DNA of 64,000 nt, taken from contig CP063848.1 in the NCBI GenBank assembly GCA_015277795.1, forward strand, positions 5,146,001 through 5,210,000. The letters are read 5' to 3'. Shown here piece by piece: positions 51,826 to 64,000 of this stretch. This DNA is from Massilia sp. UMI-21. Its GTDB lineage: Bacteria > Pseudomonadota > Gammaproteobacteria > Burkholderiales > Burkholderiaceae_D. The notes below the pieces were generated by a model that was not told the origin of the DNA, made no database searches, and was given only the letters and a program-made list of their open reading frames with translations. The position numbers were made by a program, and so were the translations under genes. The stretch's first letter is position 1. Each line of letters starts with the position of its first letter.

Positions 51826-51892
51826 ATCCCCAACCAGGTCGTGAAAACAATGCCATAAGGCAATTTTTTACGACTGGACAGTGGGATCGGCG

Positions 51893-51898
51893 TATAAT
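51893..51898 (+). promoter_or_regulatory. -10 element of a probable leaderless HDOD transcript
   Basis: A perfect TATAAT ends six bases before the ATG at 51905. Initiation at the usual spacing would fall on the start codon. No Shine-Dalgarno sequence precedes that ATG. An in-frame ATG upstream at 51881 lies before the -10 and would need another promoter. Confidence 0.55.
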
Positions 51899-51904
51899 TT
51901 TTTG

Positions 51905-52750
51905 ATGGACCGACTCTCCGCCCTCAAGAGCATCGCCGCCGAGGTCAGCCGCGGCGAACTCAGCTTTCCTACGAACGTCGACGCGACGCTCAAGCTGCAG
52001 CGCGCCCTGAACGAAGCCGACTGCCACACCGACATGGCGGCGCGCCTGGTGCAGGCCGAGCCGCTGCTGGCCGCGCGCACCGTGGCGATCGCCAATTCGG
52101 TGGCCTACAACCGCGCCGGACACGACGTCACCAATGTCCGCGCAGCGGTGCAGCGGGTCGGTTTCCGTACGCTCGGTGCACTGGCGGCCTCGGTCATCGT
52201 GCGCCAACTGGCCAGCGAAATCGTCGACCCCGGCCTGCGCGCCAAGGCCGACGCCCTCTGGATCCATTCGGCCCACGTGGCCGCGCTGGCCCAGGTGATC
52301 GCGCGCCGCGTCTCCTTCGTCGATCCGGAAACGGCCATGTTCGCCGGCATCGTGCATGACGTCGGCGGCTTTTACGTGCTCTCGCGTGCCGAGGAGTTTC
52401 CGGGCCTGCTGGACGGCGCCGCCGAGGGTGGCGCCGACGAGTGGATCGAACACGGCGAAGTGGCGATCGGCCGCGGCGTCCTGCTCAAGCTGGGCGTGCC
52501 GGTGCCGGTGATGGGCGCCATCGAAGCCCTGTGGAACGGCATGCGCGCCCTGCCGCCGGAAACCCTGGGCGATACCCTGCTGCTGGCCAAGGACCTGGCC
52601 CCCTTCCCCTCCCCGCTGTACGAGCGCCCGGGCGCGACCACGCTCGACTCGGCAGCCACCATCGACTTCACCGTCGGCGAAGGCACCCTGGCGCACGTGC
52701 TGGCCGAGTCGGCCGACGAAGTCAAGAGCCTGACTACCGCCCTGCTGTAA
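51905..52750 (+). CDS. HDOD domain protein
   Basis: This 281-residue protein is mostly an HDOD domain (residues about 10-210), a metal-dependent phosphohydrolase-like fold usually linked to signalling. The segment FAGIVHDVGGFYVLSRAEEFP near residue 145 gives an HD pair, and the second region HGEVAIGRGVLLKLGVP follows. Most HDOD proteins lack catalysis and act as adaptors. No partner domain is fused here. The start at 51905 is preferred over 51881 because of the promoter position. Confidence 0.85.
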   Translation: MDRLSALKSIAAEVSRGELSFPTNVDATLKLQRALNEADCHTDMAARLVQAEPLLAARTVAIANSVAYNRAGHDVTNVRAAVQRVGFRTLGALAASVIVRQLASEIVDPGLRAKADALWIHSAHVAALAQVIARRVSFVDPETAMFAGIVHDVGGFYVLSRAEEFPGLLDGAAEGGADEWIEHGEVAIGRGVLLKLGVPVPVMGAIEALWNGMRALPPETLGDTLLLAKDLAPFPSPLYERPGATTLDSAATIDFTVGEGTLAHVLAESADEVKSLTTALL

Positions 52751-52891: not shown

Positions 52892-55234
52892 ATGAAGAAC
52901 ACCCTTTCGCTATGGGGGATGGGGGCCTTGTTGGCCGCCTCCCTGGCATCCTCGCACGCCGCCGCCCGTCCGGGCGTCACCCCGATCAGCTTCAAGAACG
53001 CATCGGTCCACGACCCTTCGGTGATCAAGGCCGGCGACACCTATTACGTCTTCGGCTCGCACCTGGCCGCCGCGAAGTCCACCGACCTGATGAACTGGCA
53101 GCAGGTAAGCAACGGCGTCGGCGCCAGCAATCCCCTGTTCCTGAACGGCGCCGCCAACGTGTTCACGGAACTGGCCGACACCTTTGCCTGGGCCCAATCG
53201 AACACCTTGTGGGCGGCCGACGTCAGGCAACTGGCCGACGGCAGGTTCTACATGTACTACAACGCCTGCAAGGGCGACTCCCCGCGCTCCGCCCTGGGCG
53301 TGGCGGTGGCCGAGCGCATCGAAGGACCCTACGTCGACAAGGGCATCATCCTGCGCTCGGGCATGTGGGGCCAGCCCAGCCCCGACGGCACGGTGTACGA
53401 CGCCCTGAAGCATCCGAACACGGTCGACCCGCATGTGTTCTCCGACAATGCCGGCCGCCTGTGGATGGTCTACGGCTCGTATTCGGGCGGCATCTTCATC
53501 ATGCAGATGAACCCGACCAACGGCATGCCGCTGCCGGGCCAGGGCTACGGCAAGCGCCTGATGGGCGGCAACTACAGCCGCATCGAAGGGGCGTTCGTAC
53601 TGTACAGCCCGGCCACGTCCTACTACTACCTGTTCACCTCCTTCGGCGGCCTGGATGCGAACGGCGGCTACAACATGCGGGTGGCGCGCTCGCTCAAGCC
53701 GGACGGCCCCTACCTGGACGCCCAGGGCAACGACATGGCCAGGGTCAAGTCCGATCCGGCCAGGCCGCTGTTCGACGACGCCTCGATCGCGCCCTACGGC
53801 GTCAAGCTGATGGGAAGTTACCTGTTCGAGCGCAAGCTCGGCGAAGCGGGGACCGGCATCGGCACCGGCTACGTGTCGCCCGGCCATAACTCGGCCTACT
53901 ACGATGCCGCGACCGGCAAGCATTTCCTGGTGTTCCATGCGCGCTTCCCCGAGCGCGGCGAACAGCACGAAGTCCGGGTACACCAGATGTTCATGAATGC
54001 CGACGGCTGGCCGGTCGTCGCGCCCTATCGCTACGCAAAAGAAAGCGCGAGCGCCGTGCCGCGCGGCTTCGTGCATGGCGACTACCTGTTCGTCAACCAT
54101 GGCAAGGACATCTCTGCCGCCGTCAAGAAGTCCCAGCCGGTCACGCTGCACGCCAATGGCGCGGTGAGCGGCGCCGTGACGGGCAGCTGGCTGCTGTCCG
54201 GCAGCAATGGCGTCGAGCTGCGGCTGTCCGGCTCCCCCTCGCCCTACAAGGGGGTCTTGCTGAACCAGTGGGACGAAACCTCGCAAAGCTACGTCATGAC
54301 CCTGTCGGCCCTGTCGCGCGAAGGGGTGGCGGTGTTCGGCAGCCGCCTGGTCCAGCGTAGCGATCCGCAGGTGGTAAAGGCCATCTACGACGAGCTCAGC
54401 CTGGGCAATACCGCGGCCGTGAGCGCCAACCTGAACCTGCCGACCTCGGCGGCGCGCGGCGCGACCATCGGCTGGAGCTCGTCGAACCCGGCCGTCGTCA
54501 GCAACAGCGGGGTCGTGACGCCGGCCGCGACCGACCTCACTGTGACCTTGAGCGCACGCATCAGCAAGGGCCCGGCCAGCATGGTGAAAACCTTCACGGT
54601 CACGGTGCGCAAGGCCGGCGGCCTGCTGGCGCACTACCCCTTCGACGGCAACCTGCTCGACGCCAGCGGCGCATCCGCAGCGGGCGCGGTCGTCGGCAAC
54701 CGGATCGACGCCGCGGGCGGCAGCATCGGCTTCGAGGCGGGCGTCAAGGGCAAGGCCGCAGTCTTCAACGGCGCCAGCGGCATCCGCCTGCCCAACGGCC
54801 TGATCAGCTCCAACAGCTACACCGTCGCACTCTGGCTCAAGCCGGCGCAACTGACGGCGTTCACGCCCACCTTCTTCGGCGCCCGGACCACGGATTCCTG
54901 GATCAGCTTCCTGCCGAAGGGACATGAATTCGTCAACGGCGCCTCGATGCTGTGGTCGGGAACGGCCTGGTACGACGCCGGCGTCGGCATGAACCTGCCG
55001 GTGGGCCGCTGGTCGCACGTGGCCTTCAGCGTCAGGAACGGCGCCGTCAATGTCTACGTGGACGGGGTGAAGCGCTTCAGCGGCAGCAACTTCCCGAACG
55101 TGTTCAGCACCACCGGCGGCGTGTTCGCGCTGGGGGTGAACTGGTGGGATGCGCCCTACCAGGGCGCCATGGATGAGCTGCGCATCTATGGCGGCGCCCT
55201 GGGCGATGCCGACATCGCCGCCCTGGCGCGCTGA
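52892..55234 (+). CDS. Secreted GH43 arabinan endo-1,5-alpha-L-arabinosidase with LamG domain
   Basis: This 780-residue exported enzyme begins with a signal peptide (residues 1-26). Residues about 30-370 form a GH43 five-bladed propeller: the catalytic Asp in ASVHDPSVIKAG, the general acid Glu in YSRIEGAFVLY, and HNSAYYDAATGKHFLVFH. Residues about 390-490 match the C-terminal domain of extracellular arabinanases (FVNHGKDISAAVKKS). Residues 494-570 are an atrophied bacterial Ig-like domain (IGWSSSNPAVVSNSGVVT), and 575-780 a LamG/concanavalin-like carbohydrate-binding domain. It should cut arabinan outside the cell. No other polysaccharide genes adjoin it. Confidence 0.9.
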   Translation: MKNTLSLWGMGALLAASLASSHAAARPGVTPISFKNASVHDPSVIKAGDTYYVFGSHLAAAKSTDLMNWQQVSNGVGASNPLFLNGAANVFTELADTFAWAQSNTLWAADVRQLADGRFYMYYNACKGDSPRSALGVAVAERIEGPYVDKGIILRSGMWGQPSPDGTVYDALKHPNTVDPHVFSDNAGRLWMVYGSYSGGIFIMQMNPTNGMPLPGQGYGKRLMGGNYSRIEGAFVLYSPATSYYYLFTSFGGLDANGGYNMRVARSLKPDGPYLDAQGNDMARVKSDPARPLFDDASIAPYGVKLMGSYLFERKLGEAGTGIGTGYVSPGHNSAYYDAATGKHFLVFHARFPERGEQHEVRVHQMFMNADGWPVVAPYRYAKESASAVPRGFVHGDYLFVNHGKDISAAVKKSQPVTLHANGAVSGAVTGSWLLSGSNGVELRLSGSPSPYKGVLLNQWDETSQSYVMTLSALSREGVAVFGSRLVQRSDPQVVKAIYDELSLGNTAAVSANLNLPTSAARGATIGWSSSNPAVVSNSGVVTPAATDLTVTLSARISKGPASMVKTFTVTVRKAGGLLAHYPFDGNLLDASGASAAGAVVGNRIDAAGGSIGFEAGVKGKAAVFNGASGIRLPNGLISSNSYTVALWLKPAQLTAFTPTFFGARTTDSWISFLPKGHEFVNGASMLWSGTAWYDAGVGMNLPVGRWSHVAFSVRNGAVNVYVDGVKRFSGSNFPNVFSTTGGVFALGVNWWDAPYQGAMDELRIYGGALGDADIAALAR

Positions 55235-55241
55235 GCCGGAC

Positions 55242-55302
55242 AAAAAAATGCCCGCTCCACAGAGCGGGCAAAGTCCAAAACTAGGGATGTCCTGAAAGAG
55301 AC
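55242..55302 (-). ncRNA. Putative small RNA gene, tandem copy 1
   Basis: Read leftward, a TATAGT -10-like element (55314-55309) is followed by about 60 bases that contain GTCTCTTTCAGGACATCCC and end in a 9-base-pair hairpin, TGCCCGCTC / GAGCGGGCA, with seven T. That is the layout of a short stand-alone transcript with its own terminator. The segment from the -10 to GGACTT is nearly identical in the second copy. It has no coding potential. It resembles the multicopy tandem toxic small RNAs described in betaproteobacteria, with a C/U-rich stretch at the 5' end; that match is from memory and unverified. Confidence 0.6.
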
Positions 55303-55385
55303 GGTTCCACTATAGGTCTCGCACGAGCCCGCTTCCGTGCGCTGGTTCACACAGGAGCGCATTTCTTCACGCCGGCGCGACAGGC

Positions 55386-55449
55386 AAAAAAAACCCGCGC
55401 CGGTGAGGGAGCGGGTGAAGTCCAAAACTAGGGATGTCCTGAAAGAGAC
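55386..55449 (-). ncRNA. Putative small RNA gene, tandem copy 2
   Basis: Second copy, 147 bases upstream of the first in the direction of transcription. A TATAGT (55461-55456) is followed by the same conserved body (GTCTCTTTCAGGACATCCC, one base different just after the -10), then a different terminator stem, ACCCGC / GCGGGT, with extra inner pairs and eight T. The terminator sequences differ but the structure is kept, as expected for functional RNA genes rather than simple duplications. Confidence 0.6.
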
Positions 55450-55532
55450 AGTTCCACTATAAGCGTGTCGGTCCAGGCGCTCTGTGCGCTGACACACCTT
55501 GGCGCGCCCGACGGTGACGGGCTAATGCAGCG

Positions 55533-56462
55533 TCAGGTGCGTGCAAAGCGCGCGCACAGCGCCAGGACAGTGTCGGTGCCTGTATTGTCGCAGCCAATCG
55601 CCAGTCCCTCGCACAGTTCCGGGGCGGTCAGATTGGTCAGCACCAGGCCCGGCGGCATTTCCACCGCCAGGCGGGCGCCGCGCTCCCAGGCCAGGCGCGC
55701 GGTGTCGCCCCAGCGCACCTGGCGCGCCATATTGGTCGCGAGATCCTCGGCAATGCGCAGCGGATCGGCCAGCATGCGCGCCATGCTACTGCTGAGGAAG
55801 GTCGTGTGCGGACGGCGCAGGGCGACCTGGCCGAAGGCCGCCAGCATGTCGTCGGCCGCGGCGTCGAACAGCGCGCAGTGCGAGGGTACGCTGACGGCCA
55901 GGCGTTCCGCCTTGCTGGCGCCTTGCGCGCGCGCCAATGCCATCACGGCATCGAGTGCGGCGTCGGCGCCGGAAATCACCAGTTGCCGCTCGGCGTTCAG
56001 ATTGGCCAGGTAGACCGGACTGGCCGCCGTGTGCACCCCGTCGATCAGGGGGTCGAGTTGCGGCTGGGTCAGGCCGACGATGGCCGCCATCCCGTAGCCA
56101 TGGGGAAAAGCTTCGTCCATCAGCCTGCCCCGCCGCGCGACCAGCGCGACGGCGTCGGGGTAATCCAGCGCGCCCGCAATGACCGCCGCCGGATAGGCGC
56201 CGATCGACAATCCCGCCACCATGCCCGGCTGCGCGCCCATCGCGGTCAAGCTGCGTGCCATTGCCACGCCGGCAATGAGCAGGCATAGCTGAACCGCCCT
56301 GCTGGACGCCAGCGCCTGGGGCGTGTCCAGCGCCAGCGGGTCGGTCCCGAGCACCTCGCCGGTTTCGGCCAGCGTGCGCGCGGCCTCGGCATGGTCCGGC
56401 AGGCGGTGCAGCATGTCCGGGCGCTGGGCGCCCTGGCCGGGGAAGGTGAACAGCACGGTCAT
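55533..56462 (-). CDS. mdcH: Malonate decarboxylase malonyl-CoA acyltransferase subunit (epsilon)
   Basis: This 309-residue FabD-like acyltransferase starts VLFTFPGQGAQRPDML and has the nucleophile elbow GLSIGAYPAAV near residue 87 and the His in SVPSHCALFDAA near residue 195. It loads malonyl onto the acetyl-ACP subunit during activation of malonate decarboxylase. The start overlaps the mdcG stop as ATGA. It is the last gene of the operon. The 298-base region beyond it (55235-55532) contains two putative sRNA genes. Confidence 0.9.
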   Translation of the reverse strand: MTVLFTFPGQGAQRPDMLHRLPDHAEAARTLAETGEVLGTDPLALDTPQALASSRAVQLCLLIAGVAMARSLTAMGAQPGMVAGLSIGAYPAAVIAGALDYPDAVALVARRGRLMDEAFPHGYGMAAIVGLTQPQLDPLIDGVHTAASPVYLANLNAERQLVISGADAALDAVMALARAQGASKAERLAVSVPSHCALFDAAADDMLAAFGQVALRRPHTTFLSSSMARMLADPLRIAEDLATNMARQVRWGDTARLAWERGARLAVEMPPGLVLTNLTAPELCEGLAIGCDNTGTDTVLALCARFART

Positions 56463-57091
56463 GGCGCCTCCCACGGATCGTCGGTCATGCGCGGTCCGGT
56501 ATCGGTCTTGAGCAGCACCCGGCCGCCGTTCCTGATCCATTCGGCAAAGGCGAAACCGCCATGTCCGGTATCGATCTGCAGGTCCACGCGGCATGCGGCG
56601 TCCGCGCTCACCTCCTGCAGCAGGCTTGCCTGGCTTGCCGTCAGCGGAGTCGGGGCGCGTACCAGCAAGTCGATATCGCTGGCCGGATGGAGGACCGGCC
56701 AGCCGGTCGCCAGGGCGAAGCCGAGCCCGCCGGTGGGCCCCCACGCCAGGCCACTGCCATCGAGTCGGGGAGCGAGCCGGCGCAGCGCAGTCAGGATCGG
56801 CGCCGCGCCTGGCTGCGTCAACTCGCGCCGGACCAGCGTCTCGGGGCTGGCGCACGCGCGTACCGCCGAGCGCCGGAGCACGCCGGCCAGCCGCTCGCTG
56901 CGTGCTTCGCCGCGCAGTCCCACCGGGAGCAAGGCATCGCTGGCGGTGCGCGCGCGCCGCACGACGAGCGGGCAGCCGCGGCGCTGCGCCGCCTCGGCCC
57001 ACGACGGCAGGGCGCCGTCGGGCTCGAACGCCTGCCAGTCCGATACCCACAGCAGATCGTGTGGGCGCAGCGGTGGGAGATGGGCGTGCAT
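56459..57091 (-). CDS. mdcG: Malonate decarboxylase holo-ACP synthase (phosphoribosyl-dephospho-CoA transferase)
   Basis: This 210-residue nucleotidyltransferase-like enzyme attaches the 2'-phosphoribosyl-dephospho-CoA prosthetic group to the MdcC acyl carrier protein. The motifs WGPTGGLGFALATG and ASDIDLLVR (paired Asp) match MdcG. The N-terminal half is less conserved, as in the family. It is coupled to mdcH by ATGA and follows madM after seven bases. Confidence 0.9.
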   Translation of the reverse strand: MHAHLPPLRPHDLLWVSDWQAFEPDGALPSWAEAAQRRGCPLVVRRARTASDALLPVGLRGEARSERLAGVLRRSAVRACASPETLVRRELTQPGAAPILTALRRLAPRLDGSGLAWGPTGGLGFALATGWPVLHPASDIDLLVRAPTPLTASQASLLQEVSADAACRVDLQIDTGHGGFAFAEWIRNGGRVLLKTDTGPRMTDDPWEAP

Positions 57092-57098
57092 GATGGCC

Positions 57099-57872
57099 TC
57101 AGGCGAACAGCGCCCTGGTGGCGAAGAACAGGACCGATGGCCCCATCAGGCAACCGAGCCCGGTGTAGAAGGTCGAGGTCATGGCGCCGTAGGGAACCAG
57201 CTTGGGATCGATCGCCGCCAGGCTGCCGCATACGCCACTGGTCGTGCCTATCATCCCGCCGTACACCATCGCGGTGCGCGGGTTATCCAGGCCGATCGAC
57301 TTGGCGAAGAACGGCGCCCCCACCATCACCAGCACCGACTTGACCAGTCCCGCGGCGATGCTCAGCGCCACCACATCGGAACTGGCGCCGATGGCGGCCC
57401 CCGTCACCGGGCCAACGATATAGGTGACCGCGCCGGCGCCGATGGTGGTCATGCTGACCACGTCGGTATACCCGAACGCATAGGCGACGCCGGCCCCGAT
57501 CACGAAGGACAGGACCACGCCGAGCAGCAGCGCGACGATGCCCGAGAGTCCGCAACGGCGCATGTCGGACAGGCTGGCGCCGTAGGCGGTGGAGACGATG
57601 GCGAAGTCGCGCAGCATGGCGCCGCCCAGCAGGCCCATGCCCGATAGGAGCTTCAGGTCCACCACGCCCTTGGTGCCGCCGGTCGCGGTGCCGGCCATGT
57701 AGGCCAGCAGCAGCCCGATCATGATGGCCAGCGCCGAACCGTGCAGGTGTCCACGCGTCAGGCGCGCGGACAGGAAGTAGGAAATCCACATCGTCAGGCC
57801 GACCACCGCGAAGGCGGTCAGCAGGCCGTTCTTGGCCAACAGGTCGACCAGGATGTCTTGCGTCGTATTCAT
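57099..57872 (-). CDS. madM: Malonate transporter subunit MadM
   Basis: This 257-residue membrane protein has eight to nine hydrophobic segments. The family features are WISYFLSARLTRGHLHGSALAI near residue 28 and GVVDLKLLSGMGLLGGAMLRDFAIVSTAYG near 70. With MadL it forms the two-component malonate:Na+ or H+ symporter first described in Malonomonas. It is encoded 15 bases behind madL. Confidence 0.93.
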   Translation of the reverse strand: MNTTQDILVDLLAKNGLLTAFAVVGLTMWISYFLSARLTRGHLHGSALAIMIGLLLAYMAGTATGGTKGVVDLKLLSGMGLLGGAMLRDFAIVSTAYGASLSDMRRCGLSGIVALLLGVVLSFVIGAGVAYAFGYTDVVSMTTIGAGAVTYIVGPVTGAAIGASSDVVALSIAAGLVKSVLVMVGAPFFAKSIGLDNPRTAMVYGGMIGTTSGVCGSLAAIDPKLVPYGAMTSTFYTGLGCLMGPSVLFFATRALFA

Positions 57873-57887
57873 GCCGTTCTCCCTGGA

Positions 57888-58307
57888 TCAACGTTGCGCA
57901 CTGGCGGCGCCGGACGGGTCGGGGGCGCCGACCGGCGGGCCGGGACCGTAGCGGCCCTTGCCGATCTTCGCGACCAGCGGAATCAGCGCGAAGCAGACCA
58001 CGACAGCCAGCACGCCGGCCAGGATCGCCGCGGGCCCGCCCTTGACGGCGCCGACCACGTTCTGCTGCGCCGCCATCGCGACCACGATCGGAATGTACAT
58101 CGCAGTCCAGAATCCGATGCCTTGCTCGGATGCGTGGACCAGCATGCCGCGCCGCTTGAACAGGTCGGTCAGGAACAACAGCAGCAGCATGGCAAAGCCG
58201 ACACCGCCGACATTCGCTTTCACGCCAAGCAAGGCGCCAAGGACATCGCCGATGAACAGCCCGGCCAATGTGCAGAACGCGAGAAGTGCTACACCAAAAA
58301 CAATCAT
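57888..58307 (-). CDS. madL: Malonate transporter subunit MadL
   Basis: This 139-residue subunit has four membrane helices, with ALLAFCTLAGLFIGDVLGALLGVKANVGGVGFAML at residues 7-41. It is the small partner of MadM. It lies 100 bases downstream of mdcE; no strong terminator is visible in that gap, so transcription from mdcA may run through. Confidence 0.93.
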   Translation of the reverse strand: MIVFGVALLAFCTLAGLFIGDVLGALLGVKANVGGVGFAMLLLLFLTDLFKRRGMLVHASEQGIGFWTAMYIPIVVAMAAQQNVVGAVKGGPAAILAGVLAVVVCFALIPLVAKIGKGRYGPGPPVGAPDPSGAASAQR

Positions 58308-58407
58308 GATCAGTCTCCAATAGATTGGTTGTCTTGCTTTTATTGTTGTGCTTACTGCTGCTGCCCGCTGGGCAGCGTCGTGGGAACAAGCGGGTGCCGG
58401 TCTCCTT

Positions 58408-59253
58408 TCAGCCGTGAGTCGGGTCGGATTGCCATTGGGCCCGCATCAGTTCGCGGACCTTGCGCGAGGCGCTGCGGTTGTCGGCGTCGAGACGTCCGCT
58501 CAAGCCGCGATCAAGCGTGGCCCGGATGTCCGCCAGCGCCGCCAGCAAGCTGCTGCGCACCAGTTCGACATCGCCGTCGGACGCTGCGTCGGCGTCGGCC
58601 ACCGACAACAGGCGCCACAGCAGTCCGAGCGAGGCGTAATTGCGGATGTCGTAGGCCATCGGCGGAACCTGGGCGGCGAGCTGTTCGAGCGCTTCGACCG
58701 AACGCAGCGTGATGCGGGCCGCCGATGCCTTACCCATTGCATGCACGCTGACCGCGTCGTCGTCGAACGCGATGATGCGGTTGGCCTGGTAGCCGTGCGC
58801 CAGGAAGCCGCCGGAAATCGCCTTGCCGACGATGAGCGCAATCACCGGATGCCCGGCCAGCCGCGCATCGGCGTAGGCGGCTGCGGCGGCGGCGAGCGCC
58901 TGGTGGATGCCGAAGGCTTCCTCGCGCCGGCCATAGGCCTGGCTGGTGACGTCGACGATCGCGACGATCGCGCTCTTGCTGTCCTGCTCGCGCTCGGCCT
59001 CGGCCAGTTCACGCACGGCCCTGGCGATTTCCCATCCCTCGACCAGTCCGACTTCGCCGTCGCGTACCCGTGGGAAGCGGTTGTCCGGATCGGGCACGAC
59101 CGCGATGAAGCGCGCCGGGTGGCCGTCCAGGTCTGCATCCGCGACGCGCAGCGCCTGGCTGTAGCCGGGGACGGGAGAGGCCTGGCCGGTCAGCCTGGAG
59201 AACCAGGTCAGGCCGCGGCTGGGATTCAGCTTCGGATTCGGAACGGTGCTCAC
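58408..59253 (-). CDS. mdcE: Malonate decarboxylase gamma subunit (carboxylase-fold)
   Basis: This 281-residue crotonase-fold subunit forms, with MdcD, the decarboxylase that removes CO2 from malonyl-ACP. The oxyanion-hole region is VGKAISGGFLAHGYQANR near residue 130. The start is GTG at 59253, which forms a GTGA overlap with the mdcD stop; upstream codons in frame are not MdcE-like. It is the last of the five enzyme genes before the transporter. Confidence 0.9.
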   Translation of the reverse strand: MSTVPNPKLNPSRGLTWFSRLTGQASPVPGYSQALRVADADLDGHPARFIAVVPDPDNRFPRVRDGEVGLVEGWEIARAVRELAEAEREQDSKSAIVAIVDVTSQAYGRREEAFGIHQALAAAAAAYADARLAGHPVIALIVGKAISGGFLAHGYQANRIIAFDDDAVSVHAMGKASAARITLRSVEALEQLAAQVPPMAYDIRNYASLGLLWRLLSVADADAASDGDVELVRSSLLAALADIRATLDRGLSGRLDADNRSASRKVRELMRAQWQSDPTHG

Positions 59254-60116
59254 GATGCGCTTCCTTTCGTGTAAATGTGGCGGACGCTCTCCGCGGTGGC
59301 CTGGACCGAGGTGTCGACCTCGGCCAGCCGGGCCAGGTAGTCGCGGAAGCGGTCGCTGCGATGCTGCCGCGGCAGGCCGGCGCGCAGGCACTGCAGGACG
59401 GCTGCATGGATCTGTGCCAGGTCGTCCTGCACGTAGGCATCCACCAGCCCGCTCTGGTAGCGCTGCTCGCCGCCGGTCAGGCTCCAGATGAAGGGTTTGT
59501 CGCGCGAGTCGAATTCGGCGATGCCGGCTTCCTGCTCGATGACTTGCGGCCCGTTCAGGCCCAGGCGGGCGTCGCGGGTGCACACCAGGTAGCTGCACAG
59601 TCCGGCGGCGATCGACATCCCGCCGTAGCAGCCGACGGTGCCGGCGCTGACCCCGATCACCGGTTGATAGCGGCGCAGGTCGGCGATCCCCGCGTGGATG
59701 TCGGCGATGGCGGCCAGGCCGAGGTTGGCCTCCTGCAGGCGCACGCCGCCGGTTTCGAACAGGATGACCGCGCAGGTGGGCACGCCCTGCCGGTTGTCCT
59801 CGGCCGCCAATTCCAGCGCGGCGGCGATCTTGGCGCCGCCCACTTCGCCCATGCTGCCGCCCTCGTAGCCGCCTTCGATCGCCAGCACGACGGCCGGCTG
59901 CTGCCCGAGCGTGCCTTTCATCACCACCACGCCGTCGTCGGCCTGCGCCGTGATGCCCTGCGGTTCGAGCCAGGGCGACTTGACGCGGTCGAACGGCCCC
60001 AGCAGTTCACGGGCGGTGCCCTGGTCGAGCAATGCAATGGCGCGCTGGCGCGCGCCCAGCTCGATGAAACTGTCGCGTTGCCGGAAATCCGTGCTGTTCA
60101 TGGCTGTCGTACTCAT
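59250..60116 (-). CDS. mdcD: Malonate decarboxylase beta subunit (carboxylase-fold)
   Basis: This 288-residue carboxyltransferase-like subunit has FIELGARQRAIALLD near residue 17 and the acyl-binding GGVRLQEANLGLAAIADIHA near 122, then GTVGCYGGMSIAAGLCSYLV near 157. It pairs with MdcE. Start 60116 overlaps the mdcC stop as ATGA; a second Met at 60101 is possible. Confidence 0.92.
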   Translation of the reverse strand: MSTTAMNSTDFRQRDSFIELGARQRAIALLDQGTARELLGPFDRVKSPWLEPQGITAQADDGVVVMKGTLGQQPAVVLAIEGGYEGGSMGEVGGAKIAAALELAAEDNRQGVPTCAVILFETGGVRLQEANLGLAAIADIHAGIADLRRYQPVIGVSAGTVGCYGGMSIAAGLCSYLVCTRDARLGLNGPQVIEQEAGIAEFDSRDKPFIWSLTGGEQRYQSGLVDAYVQDDLAQIHAAVLQCLRAGLPRQHRSDRFRDYLARLAEVDTSVQATAESVRHIYTKGSAS

Positions 60117-60412
60117 GGTTTCTTCGCCTCTTCCATCGCCTCTTCCAGGCGCATGCGGACCACGCCCGGCGTGGCGCCGCAGTCGTTGATGTCGATGTTC
60201 ACGGCCGGCAGGCCGGCGCCGTCGAACATCCGCTCCAGCACGGCGTTCCAGACCGCCTGCTTGCCGTCGACCGAGGTCGTGACCGTGATGCTGGTGGCGC
60301 CGTCGCTGGCGGGTTCGACCAGCACTTCGAGGTCGCCGGAACCCACCACCCCGGCCATGGCGCGCCGCGGCGCCGGTGCGGCGGCGGCGAATTGTCTCGT
60401 GAATTTTTCCAT
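60113..60412 (-). CDS. mdcC: Malonate decarboxylase acyl carrier protein (delta subunit)
   Basis: This 99-residue acyl carrier protein has the serine for the dephospho-CoA-derived prosthetic group in GVVGSGDLEVLVEP near residue 27. The acetyl thioester on this group is exchanged for malonyl, which is then decarboxylated. It starts two bases after the mdcB stop and overlaps mdcD by four bases. Confidence 0.93.
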   Translation of the reverse strand: MEKFTRQFAAAAPAPRRAMAGVVGSGDLEVLVEPASDGATSITVTTSVDGKQAVWNAVLERMFDGAGLPAVNIDINDCGATPGVVRMRLEEAMEEAKKP

Positions 60413-60414
60413 GT

Positions 60415-61326
60415 TTAGTCCTTGCGCTGTCGGTTCGATCGTTGGTGCTGGAGGCGGTCCAGGAACAGGGTGGCGGCCAGCAAGTCCGCCGCGCCGCCGG
60501 GCGAAACCCTCAGCCCGACCATCAGCCCATCCAGCGTGCGCAGCGCACGCTTGCCGCTGGCCGTGCCTGCACCGCCGGCGGCAAGCGCCTGCGCCGCCCC
60601 GTCCTGGATGGCCGCCAGCGCCTCGGTGCCGCCGCGCGACAGCACGCAGGTATCGTCGAGCTGCGCGATCAGGGCCAGCAGGCAGTCGAGCCGGGCGGTG
60701 ATCTCGCTGTTTCCCTGCCGGCGCGAAGCGCGCAGCCGCGGCAGGGCGCTGTCGACCACGGACGGAAAGCCCGCCTGGGCCTGGGCGCGCGCGCCGCCCA
60801 CGCCATAGCGCTTGCATGCGGCTTCGCCTTTGTTATTGGTATGAACCGGGGCAAAGCGATCGGGGCAACGGGCGAGCGCGCCGGCACGGCGGGCGATGTC
60901 CGATGCGCAGGCCGCGCCCGGGACCTGGGCGGCCGCCGTGACCAGCAGGCCCAGCGCCCAGATCGCACCGCGATGGGTGTTGATACCGCCGGTCGCCTCC
61001 AGCATGGCCGCTTCGCCCAGCCGGCCGATCTGGCCGATCCGGGCGCGCAGCGTGGGCATGTCGGGTATCGTGCCGCCGGCCTGGGCCAGCGCATCGAAGG
61101 TCGGATGCAGCACCCGCGCCGAATGGCACATCAGGCTCCAGTCCATGTCGCTGTGCGCCCCGCGGCCGCGCAGGTCGACCAGGCCGGGCTTGGGCGTCAG
61201 CATGGCTTCGTCGATCAGTGCGGCCACGGCGCCGTCGGCCAGCAGAGTGGCGGACTGGGCCGTCGGCCGGGTGGGTGCGCCGGCCGTGCGCGCTATCAGG
61301 GCGTCCATGATGTCCGGGCTGTTCAT
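60415..61326 (-). CDS. mdcB: Triphosphoribosyl-dephospho-CoA synthase
   Basis: This 303-residue CitG-like enzyme makes the 2'-(5''-triphosphoribosyl)-3'-dephospho-CoA precursor of the MdcC prosthetic group. Family motifs are LIDEAMLTPKPGLVD near residue 38, GAHSDMDWSLM near 56, GINTHRGAIWALGLL near 118 and PDRFAPVHTNNKGE near 160. The start ATG overlaps the mdcA stop as TAATG. Its position second in the operon is the usual order mdcA-B-C-D-E. Confidence 0.92.
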   Translation of the reverse strand: MNSPDIMDALIARTAGAPTRPTAQSATLLADGAVAALIDEAMLTPKPGLVDLRGRGAHSDMDWSLMCHSARVLHPTFDALAQAGGTIPDMPTLRARIGQIGRLGEAAMLEATGGINTHRGAIWALGLLVTAAAQVPGAACASDIARRAGALARCPDRFAPVHTNNKGEAACKRYGVGGARAQAQAGFPSVVDSALPRLRASRRQGNSEITARLDCLLALIAQLDDTCVLSRGGTEALAAIQDGAAQALAAGGAGTASGKRALRTLDGLMVGLRVSPGGAADLLAATLFLDRLQHQRSNRQRKD

Positions 61327-62958
61327 TACCAGCTCCTGAACTTTGCCGGGGGTTCGTACAAGCCCTCGGACCAGTCGACCAGGTCGCCGATGCTCTTCGC
61401 TGCCAGCAGCGAACGGGTAGCGTCGGCGCGCCGCACGCCGATATCCTCGGGCAGGGCGATCAGCCCGGCGCTGCGCATGCGCTGGGTCTCCTTGGGATCG
61501 TGGCGCATGCCGATCGGCGTGACGCCCGCGACGGCCGCCAGCATGGCCTTGCGCTCCTCGAGCGACTGCGACTTGTACAGGTAGGCGATGCCTTCCTCGG
61601 TCAGCACGTGGGTCACGTCGTCGCCGTAGATCATCACCGGGGCGAGCGGCATGCCGGTGTCGCGGCCCACCTGGACCGCGTCCAGGCTCTCGACGATGCT
61701 CGGCTGACCGTTGTCCTGGAAGGTCTCCACCATCTGCACGACCAGCTTTTTGCCGCGATTTAAGGGATCGGTTGCATCGATCATCGACATCCACGCCGGC
61801 GTGGCGTGGCGCCGCCCGTGCGGGTCGTGGCCCATGTTCGGCGCGCCGCCGAAGCCGGTCAGGCGGCCGCGCGTCACGGTCGACGAATTGCCCAGTCCAT
61901 CCATTTGCAAGGTCGAGCCGATGAACAGGTCGACCGCATACTGTCCGGCGAGCTGGCACAGCAGCCGGTTCGAGCGCAGCGAACCGTCACGGCCGGTGAA
62001 GAACACATCGGGGCGGGCGGCAACATAGTTCTCCATGCCCAGCTCGGCGCCGAAGCAGTGGACGCTCTCGACCCAGCCCGATTCGATGGCGGGAATCAAG
62101 GTCGGGTGCGGGTTCAGCGTCCAGTTGCGGCAAATCTTTCCCTTGAGCCCCAGTTGTTCGCCGTAGGTCGGCAGCAGCAGTTCGATCGCGGCGGTATTGA
62201 AGCCGATGCCGTGGTTCAGCGACTGCACCTGGTGGCGCTCGTACACGCCGCGGATGGCCATCATCGCCATCAGCACGTGAACAGGCTTGATGAGCCGGGG
62301 ATCGCGCGTGAACAGCGGTTCGATGAAAAACGGCTTGTCGGACTGCACCACGAAGTCGACCCAGGAGCCCGGGATGTCGACCCGCGGCAGGTCGGCCGGG
62401 TCGTCGACGATCTCGTTGACCTGGGCGATCACGATACCGTCGCGGAAGGCCGCGGCTTCGGTCAGGGCGGGCGTGTCTTCGGTGCTCGGGCCAGTGTAGA
62501 GATTGCCCTGCCGGTCGGCCTTGTAGCCGGCCACCATGACCACCTGCGGCGTCAGGTCCACATACAGGCGCGCATACAGTTCGACATAGGTGTGGATGGC
62601 GCCGACTTCCAGTTGGCCGTCCTTCAGGTACTGGGAGATGCGCAGGCTCTGCCCGCCGGCAAACGCGAAGTCGAGCTTGCGGGCGATGCCGAGTTCGAAC
62701 AGGTCGAGATGCTCGGGCAGGCTGACGCTGGGCATGATCAGGTGCAGATGGTTCACTTTCGCGGGATCCACCTGCACCAGCGCGCGGGCCAGGAAATCGG
62801 CCTGCTTCTGGTTGTTGCCCTCCAGGACGACGCGGTCGCCGGGGGGAGATCAGGGCTTCCAGCGCTGGAACGATCTGATCGGTCGGGATCACCCGGCCGG
62901 ATGCATACGGTTGGGCAAGTGCGAGGCGGCGCTGTTTTCCTGTCGCCGGCGGCTCCAC
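61326..62958 (-). CDS. mdcA: Malonate decarboxylase alpha subunit, interrupted by a +1 frameshift
   Basis: MdcA exchanges acetyl-ACP for malonyl-ACP and is normally near 545 residues. Here two frames must be joined. From GTG 62958 the protein reads RRLALAQPYASGRVIPTDQIVPALEALISP, then frame is lost in a run of six G at 62841-62846 (plus strand). With five G it would read on as GDRVVLEGNNQKQADFLARAL and into the long downstream frame (VDPAKVNHLHLIM to PAKFRSW), total 543 residues. All later motifs are intact (GFGGAPNMG, YGDDVTHVLTEEG). The downstream frame alone could start at about 62777 but would miss about 60 residues. Sequencing error, true mutation or phase variation are all possible. Confidence 0.85.
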
Positions 62959-62981
62959 TTGGGCGAGTTTTCTGTGACAAC

Positions 62982-63902
62982 ATGATCATCGACGAAGAAA
63001 TCACGCTCAAGAAACTCGAGATATTCCTGGCCTTCATGGAGCTAGGCAGCCTGGCGCGCGTGTCGGAAGTACTTGGCCAGAGCGCGGTCAGCATCCACCG
63101 GGCCTTGCATACCCTGGAGGAAGGCCTCGGCTGTCCGCTGTTCAAGCGCTCTGGACGACACCTGATTGCCCTCGAGACGGCGCACGTCTTCGCCGAGCAT
63201 GCGCGCAGGACGCTCGACGCTTGCCAGCAGGGCGTCAAGCGCGTACGCGAGCTCGCGAATGTGAACGCTACTAAACTGCGCATCGGCACGCTGCATTCGC
63301 TGACCCTGCATTGCATTCCACGCATCATCGTCGAACTGAAATTGCGCAAGCCGGACGTCGAGGTCAGCCTGACCATGGGCTCGAACCAGGCCCTGCTGCG
63401 CGACCTGAGCGAAGGCAACCTCGATGCCGTCATCATCGGCCTGATCGAGCCACCCACGGGCGGCGACCTGGTGTCGGTGCCGATCTTCGACGACGCGATC
63501 TACCTGGCCGTGCCGGCCGATTCGCCGTTCGCCAAGCTTCCCGAAGTCGACCTGGCAGACACCCTGGACCAGAAGTTCCTGACCTTGAAACAAGGGTTTG
63601 TGACCGCGCACAGTTTCTTCCACGCTTTTGACGGCAGTGGGCACAAGCCCAAGATCGCCATGGAGGTCAGCGACATTTTCTCGCTGATCAACCTGGTGGG
63701 CGAAGGGATGGGTTTTGCGCTGCTGCCTGGCCGGATCGCGTCCTTCAGTACCCGCATCAGGCTGGTGCCGCTGGCACGCAAGTTCGCATCGAAGCAATCG
63801 ATCACCCTGCTCTATTCCCAGCGGCGCGAGCGCGATCCGAACCTGCTGGCGCTGGCGGCCGAGTGCAGGATGTATGCGCGGCGAAAAGATCTGGTCGCCT
63901 GA
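62982..63902 (+). CDS. mdcR: LysR-family regulator of malonate utilisation
   Basis: This 306-residue LysR regulator has the winged HTH at residues 8-66 (LEIFLAFMELGSLARVSEVLGQSAVSIHRALHTLEE) and an effector-binding domain at 95-300. It is divergent from mdcA with only 23 bases between the start codons, and it is the standard mdc neighbour. It probably activates the operon when malonate is present. The promoters must overlap the coding sequence of one or both genes. A third copy of the putative sRNA element begins 60 bases after its stop. Confidence 0.88.
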   Translation: MIIDEEITLKKLEIFLAFMELGSLARVSEVLGQSAVSIHRALHTLEEGLGCPLFKRSGRHLIALETAHVFAEHARRTLDACQQGVKRVRELANVNATKLRIGTLHSLTLHCIPRIIVELKLRKPDVEVSLTMGSNQALLRDLSEGNLDAVIIGLIEPPTGGDLVSVPIFDDAIYLAVPADSPFAKLPEVDLADTLDQKFLTLKQGFVTAHSFFHAFDGSGHKPKIAMEVSDIFSLINLVGEGMGFALLPGRIASFSTRIRLVPLARKFASKQSITLLYSQRRERDPNLLALAAECRMYARRKDLVA

Positions 63903-63962: not shown

Positions 63963-64000
63963 AAAAAAAAACCGCTCCGGTTGGGGAGCGGGTGAAGTCC
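63963..64000 (-). ncRNA. Putative small RNA gene, third copy, 3' part only
   Basis: The window ends inside this element. Read leftward it shows GGACTTCACCCGCTCC, a hairpin CCGCTCC / GGAGCGG, and nine T. The GGACTT body end and the terminator layout match the copies at 55242 and 55386, in the same orientation. The 5' part and -10 lie beyond the window and cannot be checked. Confidence 0.5.

Follow-up and report, generated by a model that had tools for sequence, protein, structure and literature searches.

The closest described systems are the double-hairpin RNAs of Rfam family RF02278, which occur in several copies per genome in Burkholderiales and for which growth inhibition of E. coli upon cloning is regarded as a family trait. 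In Burkholderia cenocepacia, ncS27 and its kin are RF02278 RNAs with CU-rich sites predicted to lie over ribosome-binding sites, overexpression of ncS27 slows growth, and an upstream motif is common to three of the four RF02278 RNAs of this organism, as reported in the accessible part of PMC5688073. Four RF02278 sRNAs scoring 59.6-64.7 bits were reported in Herbaspirillum seropedicae (PMC7011215, in part). In Bordetella pertussis, S17 is reported to pair near the ribosome-binding site and repress a sigma-54 activator, while its overexpression was non-toxic to exponentially growing E. coli (PMC11722255, in part). The RNA type analyzed here, designated the window type, is not described in the accessible portions of PMC4603805, PMC5688073, PMC10987360, PMC11722255 and PMC7011215, and a search of the literature on Massilia and Oxalobacteraceae sRNAs, RF02278 and stressosome sRNAs found nothing on it among the papers listed.

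The window is a stretch of 64,000 nucleotides from the genome of Massilia sp. UMI-21. A sequence-only reading had proposed two near-identical units 147 bases apart with private terminators, and a third copy, starting at 63963, that was cut by the window end. The two units were indeed found to share a 53-nt direct repeat with 94% identity (55262-55314 and 55409-55461, 147 from start to start), and differing GC hairpins followed by T runs lie 3' of the units on the minus strand. The third copy is intact in the genome (RF02278 match at 5209963-5210027); past the window end come the remainder of its RNA, which extends to about window position 64026, and its promoter. The features are:

51881..52750, plus strand: HDOD-domain gene next to the array, a conserved neighbour with an uncertain real start
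52892..55234, plus strand: arabinan endo-arabinosidase-like gene, an insert separating copy 1 from the HDOD gene
55242..55303, minus strand: predicted sRNA copy 1, about 61 nt (RF02278, 42.4 bits; window-type model R1, 85.2 bits, R1 having been built with copy 1)
55242-55248, 55250-55269 and 55270-55302, minus strand: T run, terminator hairpin and body of copy 1, from the sequence
55309..55314, minus strand: -10 element TATAGT of copy 1, at a position conserved in 181 distinct copies
55336..55351, minus strand: palindrome of the CRP type upstream of copy 1, TGTG-N8-CACG with one change, centred at -41.5
55386..55450, minus strand: predicted sRNA copy 2, about 64 nt (RF02278, 37.6 bits; R1, 75.3 bits)
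55386-55393, 55394-55415 and up to 55449, minus strand: T run, terminator hairpin and body of copy 2
55456..55461, minus strand: -10 element TATAGT of copy 2, from the sequence
55483..55498, minus strand: palindrome of the CRP type upstream of copy 2, GGTG-N8-CACA with one change
55500..63902: a LysR gene together with genes for malonate decarboxylase and transport, an insert between copies 2 and 3
63963..64000, minus strand: 3' part of predicted sRNA copy 3 (RF02278, 36.2 bits)

On the minus strand each unit consists of the -10 element TATAGT, GGAAC, YGTCTCTTTCAGGACATCCCTAGTTTTGGACTT and then the copy-specific GC hairpin and T run, and the predicted RNA of about 61-65 nt runs leftward. The body had been said to begin at TATAGT; this hexamer is the promoter -10 element and not part of the RNA, the start of which is probably near YGUCUC. 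A whole-genome search for copies, which the sequence-only reading had suggested, located the 29-nt body (up to 3 mismatches) at three places and the reversed pattern at none. Since related copies were also found by BLAST in 60 of the 62 genomes of the genus, the repeats cannot be attributed to chance. A 103-aa open frame on the minus strand (55186-55497) spans both units and contains the repeated peptide YSGTVSFRTSLVLDF. A coding sequence was rejected on two grounds, 1) the body showed no third-codon-position variation and 2) in 54 of the 181 copies the -10 element is TAAGAT, a stop in this frame.

The terminators co-vary, with 95.5% of the cells paired, seven cells with two-sided changes and a covariation of 0.235, each a value reached by none of 500 shuffles; two further measures were reached by 10 and 13 of the 500. 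Together with the invariant body and the conserved promoter, this upheld the proposal of an RNA gene family. The two window units and the third copy are very likely real sRNA genes, for which transcription is predicted.

The window-type sRNA is usually represented by two or three genes per genome in Massilia-type soil bacteria. BLAST of 62 genomes of the genus (g1) found three copies in 21, two in 36, one in 3 and none in 2, a second, short match of genome G006 having been dropped, while the genera g4, g6, g12 and g40 had one window-type copy per genome among the matches listed. Exact bodies were present in 99 GTDB stretches; the 80 that were listed belonged to Massilia, Telluria, Pseudoduganella, Duganella, Rugamonas, Janthinobacterium, Herbaspirillum or less precise bins. 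In an order-level sample, the body was found within 3 mismatches in 6 of 399 genomes, all of them Oxalobacteraceae, and the reversed pattern in none.

A 21-nt core was identical in all 52 copies from 20 genus loci with up to 5 changes permitted; these loci were chosen by BLAST rather than by exact match, and two unrelated 5-mismatch regex matches were dropped. Among the 181 distinct copies, the body varied at three positions alone (in 1, 4 and 2 copies), an invariance inflated by the exact-match search that enriched this set. The diverged forms in g6, g40 and g12 had an altered 5' half or a single altered base and retained CCCUAGYUUUGGACUU. Four g40 loci (L195, L196, L197 and L207) have the different 5' half UCUCCUCUGGAGGAGA, a hairpin that would hide an anti-Shine-Dalgarno word, and an unaltered 3' core. 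In RF02278 the first hairpin is of the UCCA..UGGA type; for the window copies, two competing body hairpins of similar weight were predicted, a 5' hairpin with weights of 0.12 and 0.41 and a bridging hairpin with weights of 0.55 and 0.32. The g6, g40 and g12 forms were predicted to favour the 5' hairpin, with the core mostly single-stranded.

At gathering thresholds, Rfam had no match in the window. With relaxed thresholds, RF02278 was the top family, at 42.4 and 37.6 bits for the two window copies, and the next families scored at most 28.1 bits. The RF02278 cut-off is 50 bits, so that all window-type copies (42.4, 37.6 and 36.2 bits) fall below it. The genome contains eight RF02278 matches in total, these three and five canonical copies (65, 59.3, 50.4, 49.2 and 42.6 bits). 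The cut-off by itself does not divide the two types, because the canonical copies at 49.2 and 42.6 bits also miss it. The sequence does divide them, since the anti-Shine-Dalgarno word CUCCUC is present in all five canonical copies and absent from the window type. Moreover, the window body, GUCUCUUUCAGGACAUCCCUAG, has no CUCC, and exposed anti-Shine-Dalgarno words of the RF02278 kind were not found in its 5' end or first loop. The window copies have two other traits of the family, a second hairpin that is an intrinsic terminator and several copies per genome in Betaproteobacteria. They also resemble ncS03, ncS05, ncS27 and ncS62 of B. cenocepacia in size, in the 5' UGUCUC and in UUGGA-YUU ahead of a strong intrinsic terminator, but they occupy a locus of their own, and a palindrome at -41.5 replaces the canonical TTGG-type -35 (23 of 34 upstreams). 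RF02278 matches were found in 90 of 97 sampled Oxalobacteraceae genomes and in none of 14 control genomes. Tandem matches of 42-45 bits in other Oxalobacteraceae genera (G075:C1:961093-961529, spaced by about 185 bp, and G237:C32:397292-398540) were taken as canonical RF02278-like.

A window-type covariance model, R1, was built from 14 window-type sequences with the terminator alone paired. Of 190 Oxalobacteraceae genomes, 49, from genera g1, g4, g6, g12 and g40, had R1 matches of at least 68.4 bits, with some of the scored copies being in the model and stricter filters applied in the search; short terminator-only BLAST matches were excluded, as counting them (57 of 195) would overstate the spread. 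All other matches listed scored at most 47.2 bits, and this gap, among the matches listed, marks the window class as discrete. Kinship with RF02278 is indicated by the cross-scores and the common layout, of which the terminator is a part. The window type was not assigned to the family, because it lies below the cut-off, a weak test, and lacks CUCC. The sequence-only reading had pointed to a family of tandem toxic small RNAs in betaproteobacteria, and this was apt insofar as RF02278 is the best Rfam match, but the gathering score was missed and the class is separate. The window type is likely a subfamily in its own right, retargeted and akin to the RF02278 double-hairpin sRNAs, and it probably acts much as they do, by pairing at ribosome-binding sites, by way of a seed that differs from theirs and is narrower. 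S17 is similarly a short sRNA with single-stranded sites that pair at ribosome-binding sites; it differs from the window type in that its 27-nt 5' end is reported identical across Betaproteobacteria and that RNase E cuts it out of a 190-nt precursor (PMC11722255, in part).

The main alternative is that the copies are ordinary RF02278 sRNAs that use a C/U-rich anti-Shine-Dalgarno 5' end, GUCUCUUUC, to block numerous mRNAs, in the way that S17 and ncS27 are reported to act through such sites (accessible parts of PMC11722255 and PMC5688073). The best Rfam family and the failure of the score alone to separate the types both speak for this reading, which the loss of CUCCUC and the separate class recognized by R1 oppose. 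The pairing potential was compared at 319 gene starts, which had been called across 464 kb of the genome. Complementary 6-mers of the whole 33-nt body numbered 45 in the Shine-Dalgarno zone and 153 elsewhere (shuffles, 47.2 and 194), whereas the 20-nt 5' part of a canonical paralogue had 75 in the zone (shuffles, 33.6) and 27 elsewhere. The C/U-rich 5' end of the window type, taken alone, leaned to the zone (15 against 7), although the total is small and shuffles gave 15.2 there and 33.6 elsewhere. The earlier suggestion that this stretch could pair with Shine-Dalgarno sequences thus retains the lean of the 5' end, but not the whole body, for which a general anti-Shine-Dalgarno function is unsupported. 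On balance, we consider it unlikely that the window copies are ordinary members of the family. The 3' core, UCCCUAGUUUUGGA, is the better supported pairing element of the putative subfamily.

The complement of the core, TCCAAAACTAGGGA, had three non-self matches in the genome with at most 2 mismatches, upstream of the start codons of an RsbRD_N-STAS gene (8 nt), a GRDP-like gene (L293, 48 nt) and a glycine-zipper gene (4 nt). It is the places of these matches rather than their number that stand out, since the reversed pattern had two. The RsbRD_N-STAS gene is the first of an apparent stressosome-like operon, which also encodes an RsbS-like protein of 118 aa, so named from size and gene order alone, as well as an ATPase similar to RsbT and an ATPase-SpoIIE protein. 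The glycine-zipper gene was rejected as a target, since its site is not conserved (0 of 29 leaders in relatives in the best 5%). The strongest predicted partner of the core among the 319 leaders belongs to a thiolase-like gene, named by eye (GGGACUAGGGAGAGCAACAUG, L242:5992-7170); its duplex energy of -21.3, against -18.9 for RsbRD, made it the sole one of these leaders to surpass the latter.

Of 48 RsbRD-STAS leaders from fresh genus genomes, 16 fell in the best 5% of the 319-leader background and 32 outside it; the set includes the incomplete genomes G024 and G048, in which BLAST found no sRNA, and L362 had been dropped from it beforehand as its start was not located. The best 5% also held 4 of 9 leaders from genus genomes used earlier (5 of 9 by another cut), 5 of 7 from g4 and g40, and 1 of 20 in genera without the window-type sRNA among the matches listed. 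Orthologues share ancestry, so these leader counts are not independent, and the contrast between the sRNA genera and the genera without a listed sRNA (Fisher, 0.011) ignores ancestry. No shuffle of the core reached 16, neither among 150 full shuffles nor among 150 that kept UCCCU, the highest count being 9. In the same 57 leaders, the reversed core scored 3, the canonical 5' end 0 and the 5' part of the window body 0. RsbRD paralogues in g1 and g40 had the site in 2 of 5 distinct leaders. In the sRNA carriers g6 and g12, the site was found in 0 of 18 distinct RsbRD leaders, where the nearest RsbRD proteins are about 62% identical and perhaps paralogues, and where one g12 genome, G202, was not among the listed sRNA matches. 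Taken together, these counts make it plausible that the predicted target, the RsbRD-STAS gene, is bound at its ribosome-binding site by the core, UCCCUAGUUUUGGACUU.

The promoters of the window-type copies have a common organization. TGTG-N8-CACA with at most 1 change lies upstream of 156 of the 181 copies and is exact in 102, and its centre is at -41.5 in 135 of the 156 and at -42.5 in the other 21, if the transcription start is the G of GUCUC. TTG was found at -37..-29 in 5 of the 181, and the spacer between palindrome and -10 element is near random. Class II positions of CRP-family activators are centred at -41.5, and the palindrome near -41.5, with a -10 element and no -35 element, is the layout of a class II CRP/FNR-family promoter. 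Among the canonical upstreams (34 of 35, the short locus L213 having been left out), the palindrome occurred in 1 and the TTGG-type -35 in 23. In many of the canonical copies, a TANCNGRTAT-like motif was seen by eye upstream of AATTGG and a sigma70-like -10 (L212, L215-L217, L219, L220, L222 and L223). Six CRP/FNR-family proteins of the genome exceeded the cut-off. One of these, L188, has the helix SRETVTR, which we take to resemble the CRP helix, and the others look FNR-like or different. CRP-family control of the window-type promoters is plausible, with L188 as the candidate regulator. In other bacteria, CRP-controlled and tandem sibling sRNAs have one activator and several near-identical copies, a logic that the window type would share.

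The conserved gene order in the genus is queA, tgt, yajC, secD and secF, then the sRNA array, then the HDOD gene. As secF precedes the array and shares its strand, the units could be a terminator or attenuator of an operon ahead of them, with read-through from secF or mdc, or an RNA processed from a 3'-UTR rather than separate genes, but every copy has its own conserved -10 element and -41.5 palindrome with the near-random spacer between them, and we regard this explanation as very improbable.

SecF and HDOD genes were found in all 20 genus loci, and SecF or HDOD in 92 of the 99 GTDB stretches of at most 8 kb, 34 of which held both. None of the 20 loci was found to contain the malonate operon or the arabinanase gene, both of which synteny marks as local insertions outside the conserved locus. 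Some of the 20 loci have oxidoreductase or trehalase genes between the copies. The cargo among or next to the sRNA copies differs from species to species (L055, L048, L044 and window 52892-63902) and comprises trehalase and oxidoreductase genes, unnamed genes, an FAD oxidoreductase and, in the window, the malonate operon and the arabinanase gene. It is as if the repeated sRNA genes marked a hotspot of gene exchange. This variation of the cargo among species would also suit a body that is itself a DNA element, either a mobile repeat (REP/MITE-like) or a recombination substrate. Three observations make that reading still harder to sustain, 1) SecF or HDOD accompanies the body in nearly all of the GTDB stretches, 2) the genome has no additional copies at up to 3 mismatches and 3) megablast of phage and plasmid records found no match to the sRNA units, on which ground a phage or plasmid origin was also rejected. 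Least credible is an sRNA acting solely on the malonate (mdc) operon, the genes of which are flanked by copies 2 and 3 here, a link rejected by synteny as the locus is conserved without mdc (MdcA in 0 of 20 genus loci of 13-19 kb and 0 of 99 GTDB stretches of at most 8 kb, MadM in 0 of 99) and as, among the eight starts called from 52000 on, low duplex energy was seen in mdcB alone (0.041).

The reading that we favour, with some reservation, is that the units are tandem genes for trans-acting sRNAs of about 60-65 nt, activated by a CRP-family protein and forming a distinct RF02278-related subfamily that represses RsbRD-STAS by pairing. A CRP-family activator would switch on all of the copies from the class II position. 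With Hfq as its probable partner, the RNA would then expose the core, which would pair with the ribosome-binding sites of selected mRNAs and repress their translation. The best supported of these mRNAs would be that of the RsbRD-STAS gene at the head of the RsbR/S/T-like partner-switch operon. The extra copies would raise the dose or split the regulation, a role suggested by the body and promoter being kept while the terminators drift.

More tentatively, the anti-Shine-Dalgarno family may have split within Oxalobacteraceae. The tandem Massilia branch would have lost the general word for ribosome-binding sites and gained a CRP-type promoter and a new invariant seed, thereby coupling carbon status to an RsbR-type stress operon by translational repression. 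Few roles are known for the "toxic" sRNAs of Betaproteobacteria. A sister class that has an altered seed and promoter and coexists with canonical copies within one cell makes seed, structure and regulator separable by experiment, and the window-type sRNA offers a concrete predicted target and a candidate activator to test in soil bacteria.
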